Shown here: positions 3,102 through 11,317 of the stretch, piece after piece
How the letters are laid out: the number at the start of each line of letters is the position of its first letter
Position numbering within the stretch: the stretch's first letter is position 1
From: Nitrosopumilus sp.
GTDB taxonomy: Archaea; Thermoproteota; Nitrososphaeria; Nitrososphaerales; Nitrosopumilaceae
Length of the DNA: 64,000 bases
Direction of reading: 5' to 3'
Assembly (NCBI RefSeq): GCF_025699125.1
Contig: NZ_JAILWC010000001.1
Span: 786,204-850,203 of the forward strand
Program-made: the position numbers and the translations under genes
Notes under the pieces: generated by a model
What the model saw: the letters and a program-made list of their open reading frames with translations, nothing else
What the model was told of the DNA's origin: nothing
Databases searched by the model: none

Positions 3102-4820
3102 TCATTTTGAGGACAGAATAAACACAGTATATTCCAGATCTTTTATCAGGCTTTGATCTATTTTTGTAAATTTGAATTGAAGATCTTTTGCTTTTTCATA
3201 CACAGAATTATCCACCACAGTTGTATTAGGTAATGCATACTGATTTATCTTAAAGCAGATGTTTACAGGCTCTCCAAAAATATCATCTAATGAGGAATCA
3301 GATGTTTTTGCTTCATTTACAATTCCAAATGCAGAACTTATTCGGTATGCCATCCCTGGAAGATTTTCAGACTTCGTCTTCTCATTGAGTTCTTTATCCA
3401 TCTTTGAGATTTCCAAACAACAATCTAGCATGTTTGATAGAGCATCATCATCTTTGGATGCAGGAAAGTAAAACAGTACTGCATCATCAATAATCTTGAC
3501 AGGTATTCCTTCATGTTTTTTGATGATTGGGACAACAGAATCAGTAAAGATTTGGCCATATCGTTTTTTCTGCTCAGCATTTAGAGTTTTAGTAATTTTG
3601 ATTGAGCCCACTAAATCAACCAAACAGACATAGCTCTCACGCTTTTCTTCAAAGTATTTTGACAGAATATCCCCTTGTTGTTTAATGATGTTTTCTCGCT
3701 TTCCTATTGCAGAAATTGTTTCCTCTATTGTCTTTGCCATATCATCAAATGATGTGGATAACTGTTCAATCTCATCATTTGTCTTAATGTTTGTTCTAAC
3801 ATCAAAGTTTCCTGAGGAGAGTTCTTTAGCTGCATCACGCAATTTGAGAATTGGTTGTGATATTCTTCTAGACAGTATGAAAGTAACAATACTTGCAATA
3901 ACAATAAGACTAATTCCAACTAAAATTATCTTATTTTGTAATTCTGTAATTGGTTTTAAGATAGAAGACTCATCTACTTCAGTTAACAAAACAAATCCAA
4001 GATCTTTTTGACAGTAAGAATATCCAAAGATGTCAACATTTCTGTAATCAGTATAATCAACAGCCTCTACATTTCGTCCATTATCAAAGCATTCACTTAC
4101 TGCAAATGTGTCTACTTTTTGATTAAATGGTGTGTTTTCAAAAAATATTGATTCAGAAATCATCATCTTGTTTTTATTCACCAAATAAACTTCGCCTGTC
4201 TCATGCAAGCCAAATCTGTTCAGCAGTATGTTATCAAAGACAGAACTCCCCATACTTGCAATCATCACACCCACCTGATTGCCACTATCTGAAAGAATAG
4301 GCAATGAAATATTCATCAGGCGAGTTTTGTCAAGATCTTGTGTAAACTCTACAGTTACATCATTTACTTTGTAGTTGTCTTTGATGTATGTTATAGGATC
4401 AATTTTTTCATTTAATGAAAATATTGGTTTTCCCCTCATATTGATAATCTGAAGGTCTCTTATTCCAGCTTCAAACTCATTTAATTGAAATGATTGAAAT
4501 TCATCATGAAGATGGGGAAGTTGTTCTTCAAGAATATTATGAAATGAAACATCATCAAGTCCAGGTATCAAGACATCAAATGATTCTTGAACAACTTGAT
4601 TTTGGGTAAAACTCTGTAATTTTGTAATTCGTGATTCAATGATTGATGAAATTGTCTGACCACGTGTTTCTGATTCATCTTTTAGAGATTCTTTGACATT
4701 ATTTTTGATTACACTATCTGCAAAATTGTATGCAAGGCCAGTTGTAACAGCAATAGATGCTATGCTAATTGCAAGCATCAAAACAATTAGTTTCGTACTT
4801 ATACTTACAAAAGACTTCAT
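3102..4820 (-). CDS. membrane sensor with HAMP and class III nucleotide cyclase-like domain
   Basis: 572 aa. An N-terminal membrane segment (about residues 10-32) is followed by an extracellular sensor domain to about 290, a second membrane segment (about 293-316), a HAMP linker (316-370), and a class III cyclase homology domain (about 395-560). The cyclase core is recognised from VCLVDLVGS (first metal-site aspartate), DDAVLFYFP (second metal region) and DIFGEPVNICFKI. The transition-state Asn is present, but the position four residues later, usually Arg, is Lys. The product may be cAMP, another nucleotide or nothing, if the domain is only regulatory. It stands alone between the tusA and regulator genes. 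Confidence 0.82.
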   Translation of the reverse strand: MKSFVSISTKLIVLMLAISIASIAVTTGLAYNFADSVIKNNVKESLKDESETRGQTISSIIESRITKLQSFTQNQVVQESFDVLIPGLDDVSFHNILEEQLPHLHDEFQSFQLNEFEAGIRDLQIINMRGKPIFSLNEKIDPITYIKDNYKVNDVTVEFTQDLDKTRLMNISLPILSDSGNQVGVMIASMGSSVFDNILLNRFGLHETGEVYLVNKNKMMISESIFFENTPFNQKVDTFAVSECFDNGRNVEAVDYTDYRNVDIFGYSYCQKDLGFVLLTEVDESSILKPITELQNKIILVGISLIVIASIVTFILSRRISQPILKLRDAAKELSSGNFDVRTNIKTNDEIEQLSTSFDDMAKTIEETISAIGKRENIIKQQGDILSKYFEEKRESYVCLVDLVGSIKITKTLNAEQKKRYGQIFTDSVVPIIKKHEGIPVKIIDDAVLFYFPASKDDDALSNMLDCCLEISKMDKELNEKTKSENLPGMAYRISSAFGIVNEAKTSDSSLDDIFGEPVNICFKINQYALPNTTVVDNSVYEKAKDLQFKFTKIDQSLIKDLEYTVFILSSK

Positions 4821-6664: not shown

Positions 6665-8002
6665 TTATGATCTAACACTAACAGTGCCTTGCATCCATGG
6701 GTGCAATGTGCAAATATAATCAATCATACCAGGATTCTCAAATGTATGACTCCAAGTATTGCCTGCCTGAATAAATTCTGAATCAAATGATTTTTCATTA
6801 TCAGTTACAGTATGTACAACAGAATCATCGTTTGTCCAAGTCACTGTTGTTCCAGATTTAATTTCTATCAAAGTTGGAAAATATGATTCTACAATGTCGG
6901 GATTCCAAGAATTTTTGACAATGGATACTTTATCTGTTTGAACTTTTTCAGCATGACTAACTTGAACCTGACCTAAATTCTCATATGATATTATCACTGG
7001 TTTTTCTAAGGATTTGATCAAGTCTTCTTGCCATTCTATCATAGAATAGCTTCCCTTGTTGTTACTTGGTTTTTGAATGTTAGACAATGATGATGCATCT
7101 TCAAGCACTTCAATTATTGCCATAGAGCCTCGTTCTTCTTGAATACCATGAACATGGAATAGGTATCTACCAGGAGTATCCCAAGTAGCTTCAATTATTG
7201 CAGTATCACCATTTCCAATCAAATGTGTTTGTGCAAAGTATGGTTCATTCCATAAAATTCCTGATGGATACACTTGCATTATGGTACTATGAATATGAAA
7301 TGGTGATTGGAGTACACCTCCAATACCTACTACATAAAATCGTGTTAACTCTCCTGCTACAACTTTGATTGGATTATCCATGTATTGTCCAGCATATCCG
7401 TTAATTGGGTAGTATTCTGTGAAATATGCCAGAGTTTCAGTTGGATCAAACTCACTTAAAGTGAAAAAATACTCTCTTGCAGGCTCCATTGGACGTATGG
7501 CAGGATCAATAATCATTGTTCCAAACATTCCCATTCTCACATGCTCAGTTGTAGGAAATGCATGACAATGATACATGAAAAGTCCTGATTCTTCTGCGAT
7601 AAAATGATACGTGTATTCTTCACCTGGCATTATCATTGGAAACACACCATCGTTTACAGAATCATGAGTTCCATGAAAATGAACAGTATGTGCATATGGA
7701 GTATCGTTAACAAATTTTACAGTAACATCGTCTCCTTCATTGAATCTAAGAGTAGGAGCTGGAACTGTTCCATTGTATGTCCAAACTGTTGCTCTAACAC
7801 CACCTGCAACTTCAATTTCGGCATCTTGGGCAATTAGTGTATAATGTAATGTTTGAGGATCTGGATTTTCAAATTTTGGATAAATATTAGTTGAATCTGC
7901 AACAGTTGTTTGTATTTCAGGAGATTGGAGTAGTAATACAGATGCAATACCAAATCCTACTATTATGCCTGCAATAATATACAATGTACTTGGTTTGATC
8001 AT
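6665..8002 (-). CDS. nirK: NirK-like multicopper oxidase with C-terminal plastocyanin domain
   Basis: 445 aa, exported by an N-terminal hydrophobic anchor (residues 7-25). Two cupredoxin domains (about 50-300) precede a plastocyanin-like domain (about 360-445). Domain 1 carries type 1 copper ligands H105, C146, H154 and M159. All four HxH motifs of two-domain multicopper oxidases are present: H108-x-H110, H145-C-H147, H236-x-H238 and H283-x-H285. The plastocyanin domain has its own His, Cys, His, Met set (VHTV, YIC, LHPWM). Archaeal ammonia oxidisers carry such proteins as NirK (nitrite/NO chemistry), but the four HxH motifs would also fit an oxygen-reducing oxidase. A 37-aa membrane peptide gene overlaps its start (ATGA). 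Confidence 0.85.
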   Translation of the reverse strand: MIKPSTLYIIAGIIVGFGIASVLLLQSPEIQTTVADSTNIYPKFENPDPQTLHYTLIAQDAEIEVAGGVRATVWTYNGTVPAPTLRFNEGDDVTVKFVNDTPYAHTVHFHGTHDSVNDGVFPMIMPGEEYTYHFIAEESGLFMYHCHAFPTTEHVRMGMFGTMIIDPAIRPMEPAREYFFTLSEFDPTETLAYFTEYYPINGYAGQYMDNPIKVVAGELTRFYVVGIGGVLQSPFHIHSTIMQVYPSGILWNEPYFAQTHLIGNGDTAIIEATWDTPGRYLFHVHGIQEERGSMAIIEVLEDASSLSNIQKPSNNKGSYSMIEWQEDLIKSLEKPVIISYENLGQVQVSHAEKVQTDKVSIVKNSWNPDIVESYFPTLIEIKSGTTVTWTNDDSVVHTVTDNEKSFDSEFIQAGNTWSHTFENPGMIDYICTLHPWMQGTVSVRS

Positions 8003-8112
8003 AAAATCACCGATAGTACAGATACTAAAATTACTGCAACAGCATAAAATATCCAGTATGTCCTTTTATGTCTTGGAATGTTTAGGGATTTTGATTTAGC
8101 TTGAAATTTCAT
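7999..8112 (-). CDS. 37-aa single-span membrane peptide overlapping the nirK-like start
   Basis: Reading the minus strand from ATG at 8112 gives a 37-codon ORF with a basic N-terminus (MKFQAKSKSLNIPRHKR) followed by one hydrophobic helix to the C-terminus. A clear Shine-Dalgarno (AGGAG) lies six bases before the ATG, and the TGA overlaps the ATG of the multicopper oxidase gene as ATGA, the usual sign of translational coupling. The predicted topology is N-in with a short outside tail. It may help membrane assembly or anchoring of the oxidase. The motif LNIPRH followed by two basic residues also occurs in the archaeosortase-like protein at 30255-31172, possibly by chance. Confidence 0.7.
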   Translation of the reverse strand: MKFQAKSKSLNIPRHKRTYWIFYAVAVILVSVLSVIL

Positions 8113-8130
8113 TATAACTCCTTTGAAAAA

Positions 8131-8190
8131 GCGAGAACTGTGTGAGAAAAAGTCACACCATGTTCTGGTCTAGGGAAGCATTGTTCTCGC
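8131..8190 (-). ncRNA. structured leader, attenuator or small RNA upstream of the nirK-like operon
   Basis: Perfect 8-bp inverted arms GCGAGAAC (8131-8138) and GTTCTCGC (8183-8190) enclose a second perfect 6-bp hairpin, GTGTGA (8140-8145) with TCACAC (8153-8158). In minus-strand RNA the outer 3' arm is directly followed by TTTTT, then by the Shine-Dalgarno of the 37-aa gene. The segment is clearly more GC-rich than its surroundings. It could be a leader that controls the nirK-like operon, a terminator or attenuator, or a free small RNA of about 60 nt. No known Rfam-like consensus is recognised. Confidence 0.45.
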
Positions 8191-8226
8191 ATGATTATGG
8201 ATATGCAAAAGTGATGATTAACCTTG

Positions 8227-8250
8227 GTAAGCTTGCTAGCTTACATGTAA
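8227..8250. promoter_or_regulatory. hairpin plus overlapping palindrome
   Basis: A perfect 7-bp inverted repeat GTAAGCT-TGCT-AGCTTAC (8227-8244) runs into the 10-bp palindrome TTACATGTAA (8241-8250). It lies between the divergent nirK-like operon and the zinc-ribbon pair starting at 8284, about 35 bp before that ATG. This suits an operator for one or both directions; an RNA hairpin is the alternative. Confidence 0.35.
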
Positions 8251-8283
8251 CCTCTGAAACTTACGAGGGTCTTTGAGAAATCA

Positions 8284-8481
8284 ATGCCTGATGGATGTAT
8301 GAGAATCGATAGTTGTAGAAGATGTGGAATCAAATTAAAAATAAAACAAAAATGCTCAATTTGCACACAGCCAATAAAATTTGTCTGTAATGATTGCCGT
8401 TTAGAAACAGAAGAACAAATCCATTCCACATGTAGATTGGTGGATATGCACTACAAACCTTTAGCACCAGAGATAGCATAA
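8284..8481 (+). CDS. small zinc-ribbon protein (family A)
   Basis: A 65-aa protein with seven cysteines after the start region, in the pattern C-x2-C-G-x-K-L, K-C-x2-C, C-x2-C, then HS-x-C, consistent with two zinc sites. The same spacing occurs in the protein at 40967-41182, so this is a small paralogous family within the window. The stop TAA overlaps the ATG of the next zinc-ribbon gene (TAATG), so the two are translated together. Nucleic-acid binding or protein contact is likely for such ribbons; no specific function is recognised. Confidence 0.65.
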   Translation: MPDGCMRIDSCRRCGIKLKIKQKCSICTQPIKFVCNDCRLETEEQIHSTCRLVDMHYKPLAPEIA

Positions 8482-8702
8482 TGTCACGCAATTCTGATTC
8501 ACATCCATTGTGTGTGGGAAAATGCAAAGAATTTGAAGTGCTCAGATCAGGCTTGGAGAGAAGATACAAACCAGGTCACAAGCGGTGTCAGCAATGTAAT
8601 CAATGGATGTTGTATGAAGGGGTATTCTGCCCGTGTTGTAACTATCGTCTAAGAACAAGACCTAGATGTAAAAAATACAAAGTGGATCTTCCAAGAATTT
8701 GA
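8481..8702 (+). CDS. small zinc-ribbon protein (family B)
   Basis: A 73-aa, strongly basic protein with cysteine pattern C-x3-C, C-x2-C and C-x-C-C followed by LRTRPRCKK. The same architecture, including the Y-x2-G-x-K spacer and the final C-x-C-C-N-x2-L-R-x-R, is found in the protein at 11075-11317, the other side of the two nirK-like genes. The start codon overlaps the stop of the upstream zinc-ribbon gene. The arginine-rich C-terminus suggests nucleic-acid binding, by inference. Confidence 0.65.
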   Translation: MSRNSDSHPLCVGKCKEFEVLRSGLERRYKPGHKRCQQCNQWMLYEGVFCPCCNYRLRTRPRCKKYKVDLPRI

Positions 8703-8715
8703 ATATCTTTCAAAT

Positions 8716-8811
8716 TCAAGAAATTTCTTTTCCACATTTGTTTGAACAGATTTTCTCAAACAAGCTAACAAACTCTCGTCCACAATGAATGTAATTTTTG
8801 ATGATTTTCAT
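8716..8811 (-). CDS. possible 31-aa cysteine micro-protein
   Basis: A 31-codon minus-strand ORF starting at ATG 8811 and ending TGA at 8716. Cysteines lie at a HCGREF motif and at CSNKCGKE, spacing that resembles a minimal zinc knuckle. It starts 5 bp after the stop of the 45-aa zinc-ribbon ORF on the same strand. There is no obvious Shine-Dalgarno beyond the overlapping region, so it may be chance. Confidence 0.3.
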   Translation of the reverse strand: MKIIKNYIHCGREFVSLFEKICSNKCGKEIS

Positions 8812-8815
8812 AATA

Positions 8816-8953
8816 TTAGTTATGGAATAATTCTACAAAATCACAACCAATGCAGAATTTTGCTTGAATTTTTCTCCAAGGTTGTTTTGCATGGAGAGCA
8901 ATGTTCGTATCACTTGTTTGAACTAGATTTGAACACTTTGGACATGTTTCCAT
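8816..8953 (-). CDS. 45-aa zinc-ribbon micro-protein
   Basis: Minus-strand ORF from ATG 8953 to TAA 8816. It begins METCPKCSNL, then a basic/tryptophan middle (KQPWRKIQ) and CIGC before a short tail. Two CxxC pairs about 27 residues apart are the pattern of a treble-clef or zinc-ribbon fold. It fills what would otherwise be an empty 385-bp gap between zinc-ribbon and RHH genes. Not recognised as a named family. Confidence 0.5.
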   Translation of the reverse strand: METCPKCSNLVQTSDTNIALHAKQPWRKIQAKFCIGCDFVELFHN

Positions 8954-9087
8954 ATTGTTAATTATCGTTCTTAATTATATTAGATGGTAAACAACACAGT
9001 TGATTTGTCATAAGGCAAGCTTCCAATCGGGTTACAAATTTTCAAAACACAATACATAATTAACTAATAATCATTGTAAAAAACCAA

Positions 9088-9621
9088 TTGACTATTGAGC
9101 AAAAAAAGAAAACTGAGACTATGTCATTTAGATTAGATAGGGAGATCCTAGATAAGCTAAGATCAGAATCTGAATTACAGGGAGTTAGTTTGAATGTGTT
9201 GGCAAACAAAATTTTCTCAAGATATGTGGATTGGGGGATGTTTGAGCCCAAGGTAGGCATGGTTCCAATAGCAAAACCCATTGTAACTGCATTATTTCAA
9301 AAACTGTCAGAACAAGAGACAATTGAATTGGCAACACAGATAGGCCATAGCATTGTGTCAGATATAGCCACATTCATGAAAGGCTCTATGGATATTGATT
9401 CATTTGTTTCATGGTTTGTAACAAGAATGAAAATTTCAGATTTTGAGATGAATTATTCTATAAAAGATTCAAGACACAGTTACATCATAAAACACGATTT
9501 AGGATACAACTGGTCGTTATATCACAAAACAGTATTAGAATTAATTTTCAATGACGCATTTGAGAAAAAAATTGATTTTAACATTAAAGATAGAATGATG
9601 GAGTTATCTTTTGAGAAATAA
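9088..9621 (+). CDS. ribbon-helix-helix DNA-binding protein
   Basis: 177 aa. The N-terminus (TMSFRLDREILDKLRSESELQGVSLN, in two parts) fits a ribbon-helix-helix motif: a beta strand of alternating residues and two helices, residues about 11-50. The remaining 125 residues are an unrecognised helical/beta domain. The called start is TTG; ATG at 9121 would begin just before the RHH strand and is a good alternative. It ends exactly where the convergent second nirK-like gene ends, so it is positioned to regulate the copper oxidase region, which is inference. Confidence 0.65.
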   Translation: MTIEQKKKTETMSFRLDREILDKLRSESELQGVSLNVLANKIFSRYVDWGMFEPKVGMVPIAKPIVTALFQKLSEQETIELATQIGHSIVSDIATFMKGSMDIDSFVSWFVTRMKISDFEMNYSIKDSRHSYIIKHDLGYNWSLYHKTVLELIFNDAFEKKIDFNIKDRMMELSFEK

Positions 9622-10992
9622 TCATACTGCTTTTACAGTTCCAGTCATCCAAGGATGAAGCATGCAATAGTATTCATACAAACCAATCTCATCAAATGTC
9701 TGCTCAAAAGAATCGCCTGACATCATCATTCCAGAATCAAAGAGTTCATCATTGCTTGTAACAGTATGAACAGAGATGTCCTTGTTTGTCCATGTAACAG
9801 TATCTCCAGCTTTTATCTGAGTAATTTTTGGATAGTATGATTTGTTAGACGACTTTACTGCAGAGCCTTCTTCTACTTCACAAAGGGTGGTTTCAACTAT
9901 TTGCGAAGTGTCAGCATCGCCTGATGTAGGGATATGGTGTTGCTCATGATCAGATGAGACTAATGTTTTAGTAATTTCGGCATCAGGATCAGGTTGTTGC
10001 AAACTGACAGCAATCTCTTGCTGCCATTCCCACATGTCAATGGATTTAGTTTTTGCAACATCTACACCATCAACTGCATCAGGAGTAGCATCCCTTACAT
10101 CAAAGTAAGCCATGGTGCCCTTTTCTTCAGGCACCCCATGCAAATGGAATAGATACCTTCCAGGCTCTTTCCATTTTGCCTCAAATATTGCGGCATTTCC
10201 AGGACTTACTTCCCATGTCTGCGTTTTAATTGGTTCATTTTCCCAAATTCCCGAAGTAATCGTATCAAATATTGTTCCGTGTATATGGAAACCAAAAGCC
10301 GCGATTGCCCCCATATCAATATAGTACAATCGGACTAGTTCGTTGGTTTTTGCAGGTAATGGGTTTGTCCAGTACTGGTCAGCATACCCATTGAAAAACA
10401 CGTAATCAGGAGTCCAGGTCTCCTGATCTTCCAAATCATATTCTCCTTTTACGAGGACATATTCTCGTGCAGGTTCTAGTCCCTCCTTGGGGTCTACAAT
10501 GAATGCACCATACAATCCGTTTCGGATGTGTTCAGATACGGGCATCACATGGCAGTGATACATGAATGCACCAGCTGGTTCTGCTATGAAATCATATGTG
10601 TAAGAATCACCTGGTAGTACTTCTTGGAATACTCCATCATTTTTCTCGTTATGATCTCCGTGAAAATGCATAGTATGTGGAAGTTTGCCATTGTTGATGA
10701 AATTGATTATGACTCTGTCACCTTCAGTTGCCCTCAAGGTAGGACCAGGGATTGTTCCATTATACGTCCAAGCTTCGATTCTCTTGCCAGGAGCAATTTC
10801 AACAGTCGTATCTTCTGCAAATACAGTGAAAGTTCGTGTAACTGGGGGATTTTGGATAGAAATATTTTCTGCATATGATACTGAGGGAGTCTCAGAAACA
10901 ACTAACCACAAACCAAACGCCACACCAAAGGAGGCAAGGGCTGCAATCATGATAATATTTCTATCCATGAACCATAATTCCACACACAGCAT
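9622..10992 (-). CDS. second NirK-like multicopper oxidase with plastocyanin domain
   Basis: 456 aa as called; the ATG nine codons in (MDRNII) is the likelier start because it begins directly before the membrane anchor. The architecture matches the paralogue at 6665-8002: two cupredoxin domains, then a plastocyanin domain with His, Cys, His, Met (VHTV, YYC, LHPWM). All four HxH motifs are present (H109/H111, H146/H148, FHIH, FHLH). The type 1 site has H106, C147 and H155, but the axial ligand position is Leu160 (HIRNGLYG) instead of Met159 of the paralogue. A linker of about 60 residues before the last domain is longer and acidic. Confidence 0.82.
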   Translation of the reverse strand: MLCVELWFMDRNIIMIAALASFGVAFGLWLVVSETPSVSYAENISIQNPPVTRTFTVFAEDTTVEIAPGKRIEAWTYNGTIPGPTLRATEGDRVIINFINNGKLPHTMHFHGDHNEKNDGVFQEVLPGDSYTYDFIAEPAGAFMYHCHVMPVSEHIRNGLYGAFIVDPKEGLEPAREYVLVKGEYDLEDQETWTPDYVFFNGYADQYWTNPLPAKTNELVRLYYIDMGAIAAFGFHIHGTIFDTITSGIWENEPIKTQTWEVSPGNAAIFEAKWKEPGRYLFHLHGVPEEKGTMAYFDVRDATPDAVDGVDVAKTKSIDMWEWQQEIAVSLQQPDPDAEITKTLVSSDHEQHHIPTSGDADTSQIVETTLCEVEEGSAVKSSNKSYYPKITQIKAGDTVTWTNKDISVHTVTSNDELFDSGMMMSGDSFEQTFDEIGLYEYYCMLHPWMTGTVKAV

Positions 10993-11074: not shown

Positions 11075-11317
11075 TTGGCACCAAGATGTAAAGGATACTG
11101 TATTGATTTTATCACAAAAAGATTTGAAAATGGATTAAAATATCAAAATGGATTGAAATGGTGTACAATATGTTCCAAATTCGTCAAAACAGAGTCAATC
11201 AGATGTTCTTGTTGCAATACTAAATTACGAGTCAGAGCAAAAAATAGAGTATACCCCAAGAAGATGGAGAAACAAGAAAATTGTTTAACTGTAAAAGCAG
11301 AGGAAGTAAAACAATGA
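11075..11317 (+). CDS. small zinc-ribbon protein (family B paralogue)
   Basis: An 80-aa basic protein with C-x3-C, C-x2-C and C-x-C-C, closely matching the spacing of the protein at 8481-8702; the C-terminus is longer and Lys/Glu-rich. It starts with TTG, about 80 bp from the divergent oxidase gene, and its stop overlaps the ATG (11314) of the next gene. The paired placement of this family on both flanks of the nirK-like genes suggests a local duplication. Confidence 0.6.
   Translation: MAPRCKGYCIDFITKRFENGLKYQNGLKWCTICSKFVKTESIRCSCCNTKLRVRAKNRVYPKKMEKQENCLTVKAEEVKQ

Follow-up and report, generated by a model that had tools for sequence, protein, structure and literature searches.

The window, a stretch of 64,000 nucleotides from a Nitrosopumilus genome of 1.85 Mb, carries two related copper protein genes, P0001 and P0002, both on the minus strand (Table 1). 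Each is an intact open reading frame, of 445 and 456 residues, respectively, and protein matches come from Nitrosopumilus, Nitrosarchaeum, and other ammonia-oxidizing archaea. A structured element and a microprotein gene lie upstream of P0001, while a ribbon-helix-helix (RHH)-like gene, a palindrome, and a small zinc-ribbon-like frame accompany P0002.

Table 1. Features of the locus and the NirK-pattern gene of the same genome. Positions are those of the window, except where a contig of this genome (G000) is named.
Feature	Position	Strand	Description
P0001	6665..8002	-	MCO4, axial Met159; MCO4_a-like; orthologue of N. maritimus 9CCK
Microprotein ORF	7999..8112	-	37 residues, single-pass membrane; behind the 60-nt element; overlaps P0001 start (ATGA)
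60-nt structured element	8131..8190	-	Upstream of P0001; second copy at G000:C1:32392-32451
RHH-like gene	9088..9621	+	Convergent with P0002, stop codons abut; called from sequence motif only
P0002	9622..10992	-	MCO4, axial Leu160; MCO4_b-like
Palindromic operator candidate TTTGCAA-N4-TTGCAAA	11010..11027	-	57 bp upstream of the P0002 M-D-R start
Small zinc-ribbon-like ORF	11075..11317	+	Divergent from P0002; at 16/22 P0002-type loci
L006	G000:C1:106895-108304		470 aa; mononuclear type 2 ligands plus Asp

The HxH motifs lie at residues 108, 145, 236, and 283 in P0001 and at 109, 146, 236, and 283 in P0002, and the alignment and ligand positions show that both proteins keep all eight histidines of a trinuclear cluster. 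The type 1 site of domain 1 consists of H105/C146/H154/M159 in P0001 and of H106/C147/H155/L160 in P0002. An earlier note on this DNA had pointed to the four HxH motifs and to Met159 and Leu160 as the axial residues, and its residue numbers proved exact throughout. The motifs superpose on known trinuclear ligands in alignments with 3GDC and 9CCK, in agreement with the AlphaFold2 model of P0002, and the axial loop of P0002, HIRNGLYG, contains no second Met that might fill the position. What the note overlooked is a third domain in each protein. From about residue 360, both carry a C-terminal cupredoxin (Pfam PF13473/PF00127) with a type 1 site of its own (H397/C431/H434/M437 in P0001 and H409/C443/H446/M449 in P0002). 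This domain is also modeled by AlphaFold2 for P0002 (mean pLDDT 88), together with an N-terminal helix at residues 11-31, and both proteins are predicted to be membrane-anchored and outward-facing. Since M-D-R is the conserved start among P0002 orthologues, translation of P0002 probably begins at Met9, with its codon at 10966-10968.

Both proteins could in principle be copper nitrite reductases with additional histidines, one or both making NO from nitrite in ammonia oxidation. NirK shares with them the two-cupredoxin core fold and the type 1 site of domain 1, and the P0002 model matches the NirK folds of Nitrosomonas (Z 32.6), Thermus (31.3), and Geobacillus and AniA (about 30). The molecule name given in the PDB for 9CCK is likewise "copper-containing nitrite reductase." The same model matches 9cck_C with a Z of 41.0 (2.1 Å over 290 residues) and 3gdc_C with 32.7, and both 4KNS (a Nitrosomonas nitrite reductase) and 7RAB lie at about 32. 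Because 3GDC, 4KNS, and 7RAB score so similarly, the fold does not tell an oxidase from a nitrite reductase; the ligands do. NirK, including that of N. viennensis, has a single type 2 copper and a catalytic Asp, and the positions of its Asp, Ala, Ile, and Val are all His in P0001 and P0002. The catalytic Asp and second-sphere Ile, both present in the NirK controls, are thus replaced by His in the two proteins, which also have two further histidines.

This pattern holds across an alignment of 111 relatives, in which each sequence was scored at those trinuclear positions that it covers. Every multicopper-type sequence had His at all covered positions. Residues other than His at four of the positions were found in two annotated bacterial NirK proteins, in L006 from this genome, and in one Anaerolineales protein, with Asp, Ala/Ser/Gly, Ile/Val, and Val at the respective sites. 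The axial Met of NirK is matched by Met159 of P0001 but not by Leu160 of P0002. Against the NirK equivalog model NCBIfam TIGR02376 (cut-off, 296 bits), P0001 and P0002 scored 112.1 and 144.5 bits and the NirK controls 544 and 535; L006 also fell below the cut-off, so the separation of the two classes rests on the residue pattern and not on the model score.

L006-type proteins occur in 75/81 family genomes, and the Cys-to-His spacing of L006 is that of N. viennensis NirK, for which nitrite reduction has been demonstrated (PMC6308003). L006 is probably the true NirK-like protein encoded here, and a role in NO or nitrite chemistry would be better assigned to L006-type proteins than to P0001 or P0002. 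With such a protein already encoded, and with the ligand and model results above, we regard nitrite reduction by P0001 or P0002 as very unlikely.

The features found are instead those of type C two-domain multicopper oxidases, which combine a domain 1 type 1 site with eight His in four HxH motifs. Examples are 3GDC, 7RAB, 3G5W (Nitrosomonas europaea blue copper oxidase), and 2ZWN (mgLAC); these share the domain 1 site and the HxH motifs with P0001 and P0002 but lack the C-terminal cupredoxin. Among solved structures the closest is 9CCK, whose title reads "Multi-copper oxidase with a C-terminal cupredoxin domain from Nitrosopumilus maritimus." It is 83% identical to P0001 over 408 residues, with all ligands in common and an axial Met, and only 44% identical to P0002, whose axial residue is Leu. 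A multicopper oxidase on a Deinococcus ficus plasmid (L122:427-1746) has an axial Met and a cupredoxin-like C-terminal fusion that apparently arose independently. Another oxidase (L004:1234-2292, plus strand; also L123) is a two-domain protein without the cupredoxin, MCO1-like and with an axial Leu. It adjoins genes for a DtxR-like regulator and a ZIP-like permease, and a pair of an oxidase and ZupT is also present on a cyanobacterial plasmid.

The lineage to which P0001 and P0002 belong is already known as MCO4. Reyes et al. (2020; PMC7785015) describe MCO4 as having T1-T3 centers plus an extra blue-copper domain, and report it from Nitrososphaerales, Nitrosopumilus, and Nitrosarchaeum. P0001 and P0002 have the same three types of copper center, with type 1, 2, and 3 ligands in the two-domain core and an extra blue-copper domain whose ligands are intact. 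According to the same study, the axial residue in N. viennensis is Met in MCO4_a but Leu in both MCO4_b and MCO1, and its MCO4 genes are NVIE_017730 (Met) and NVIE_019250 (Leu); one Met and one Leu member are present there, as at this locus. Copper limitation strongly induces both N. viennensis genes (log2 4.27 and 6.99, the latter for the Leu-type gene), and Cu(I) oxidation for uptake has been proposed as their role. N. maritimus MCO4 does not show the copper-limitation response of N. viennensis, and the authors suggest that its role there may not be related to copper. The copper-limitation motif of N. viennensis showed no excess over shuffled sequences within our window.

P0001 and P0002 are MCO4 proteins, and since this family and its Met/Leu difference were described in 2020, the observation that started this analysis is correct but mostly known. 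We consider it highly likely that both are membrane-anchored type C two-domain multicopper oxidases with a tethered cupredoxin. The apparently unreported additions are the linkage of P0002 to an RHH-like partner, its palindrome, and the element and microprotein of P0001; the sections of the MCO4 study covered here mention neither a dedicated RHH-like partner nor a palindrome.

The axial residue of a type 1 site tunes its potential; which substrate reacts at the cluster does not depend on it. This residue is fixed by clade in our tree, which came from a short search with SH-aLRT support only and has some weak nodes: Met in 22/22 members of the P0001 clade, Leu in 26/26 members of the P0002 clade, and Leu again in 56/56 members of a wider clade of archaeal and bacterial two-domain oxidases. 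Members of the Nitrososphaerales are present in both the P0001 and the P0002 clades. The motif around the residue is GLYG (Leu) in 3GDC and 7RAB and GMWG (Met) in 2ZWN. This predominance in alignment and tree rules out Leu as an unusual substitution in P0002; as far as the compared sequences go, Leu is the family norm and Met the exception.

The earlier note had also suggested that the two proteins might divide their labor, with P0001 (Met) acting on NO or nitrite and P0002 (Leu) on oxygen. The Met/Leu difference is indeed real and clade-fixed, and the upstream elements and partner genes differ between the two types. The set of trinuclear ligands, however, is identical in both proteins, and a split between nitrite and oxygen finds no support because both lack the aspartate of the nitrite reductases. 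Given also what an axial residue can do, such a division is highly improbable. The accompanying statement that Met to Leu raises the type 1 potential is documented for laccases: the exchange raised the potential of a Bacillus subtilis laccase by 90 mV, and the converse L499M lowered that of a fungal laccase by 140 mV, although the second coordination sphere can have an effect as large as that of the axial residue (PMC4220974). The domain 1 type 1 site of P0002, being capped by Leu, therefore probably has a higher potential than that of P0001.

The P0002-type genes are accessory, present in about 22/120 family genomes, and they come with a constant partner. The RHH-like gene was found at 22/22 P0002-type loci and at 0/18 P0001-type loci. 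Its product had no match in Pfam; a low-confidence model places helices at residues 18-31 and 35-48, and Foldseek returned mainly designed proteins. The palindrome is similarly specific. In the closer genera, most P0002-type loci have TGCAA-N4-TTGCA 57 bp upstream of the M-D-R start; it precedes no P0001-type gene. This genome has exactly two occurrences of the 17-mer GTTTGCAANTGNTTGCA, one upstream of each P0002 copy, and no match for the reversed control. A scan of 101 genomes found the 17-mer ten times, in seven of them, all seven with a P0002-type gene: eight occurrences precede the oxidase, one precedes the RHH-like gene (G073), and one lies 4.3 kb away (G033). With one mismatch allowed, the relaxed TGCAA-N4-TTGCA was not enriched in the whole window; the signal is the long form at a fixed position. 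The RHH-like protein may bind the palindrome, which is a candidate operator.

A second copy of the P0002 cassette exists in this genome (contig C4; L002/L161), and this cassette (L161:7426-10118) adjoins genes for a copper P-type ATPase and for an Lrp-like regulator with a TRASH-like domain. That neighborhood would suit a copper-tolerance oxidase in the role of CueO or PcoA, made at copper excess rather than shortage. It is not conserved, however: a search for a lasting link between P0002 and copper ATPases found this one P0002-type locus only, such a neighbor not being a recurrent family, and the idea of such a link was rejected. The related Leu-type gene of N. viennensis is, moreover, induced by copper shortage at log2 6.99 (PMC7785015). 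A copper-tolerance role for P0002 is hence unlikely.

Other variants of these loci were also seen. A second P0002-type gene in G027 (L160:3110-4309) has lost its cupredoxin and forms an in-frame fusion with the tail end of a dCache/cyclase-like gene, apparently a deletion scar. This gene type is represented in our window (3102-4820, minus strand) by a dCache-HAMP protein that matches adenylate/guanylate cyclases weakly, and its relatives recur near some P0001-type and P0002-type loci. The complete genome G098 has the P0001-type gene in three apparently identical copies (L155, L156, and L157).

P0001 is preceded by a different element. Its 60 nucleotides comprise an outer 8-bp stem (GCGAGAAC/GTTCTCGC), a conserved CCCTAGACCAG, and an inner hairpin that shows covariation. 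Among 24 distinct sequences, seven pairs had changed on both sides, and the covariation score reached 0.160, compared with 0.061 for shuffles and no more than 0.083 for slid controls. Because the alignment had been fitted to the structure, the score leans in the structure's favor. The element precedes a conserved membrane microprotein of 36-39 aa (PRHKKAFYGFY...VVLSLVL) in about 15 Nitrosopumilaceae genomes, and elsewhere the element stands upstream of microprotein or zinc-ribbon frames. In an order-wide sample it was confined to this family. No Rfam family matched it, and a literature search for structured RNAs of Nitrosopumilus found nothing. It may act as a leader in RNA or as a palindrome in DNA, and is a candidate for a new leader RNA or operator.

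Based on these observations, we propose a mechanism for both oxidases. The electron donor would be a small reductant, in all likelihood Cu(I) but possibly another metal or a reduced nitrogen compound, and electrons would enter at the type 1 copper of either the tethered cupredoxin or domain 1. From there they would pass over the Cys-His bridge to a trinuclear cluster, formed by the four HxH motifs at the subunit interface of a predicted trimer, where O2 would be reduced to water. Cu(I) as the physiological substrate is a prediction that we make tentatively. P0002 would differ from P0001 in its Leu-capped site and in its own regulation, through the dedicated RHH-like protein and the palindromic operator. 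It is conceivable, though we hold it to be rather doubtful, that the two MCO4 paralogues are under separate dedicated switches, with P0002 controlled by the co-inherited RHH-like protein through a palindrome nearly confined to these genes, and with a new structured RNA in the 5' leader governing both P0001 and the conserved membrane microprotein in Nitrosopumilaceae.

Many copper proteins of ammonia-oxidizing archaea are labeled NirK. Sorting them by residue sets a near-universal NirK-pattern protein apart from MCO4 oxidases, which lack the classical nitrite reductase site, and this matters wherever nirK gene counts stand in for NO or N2O production. Within MCO4, the clade-fixed axial residue and the distinct upstream elements predict two enzymes that would work at different potentials and under different conditions.
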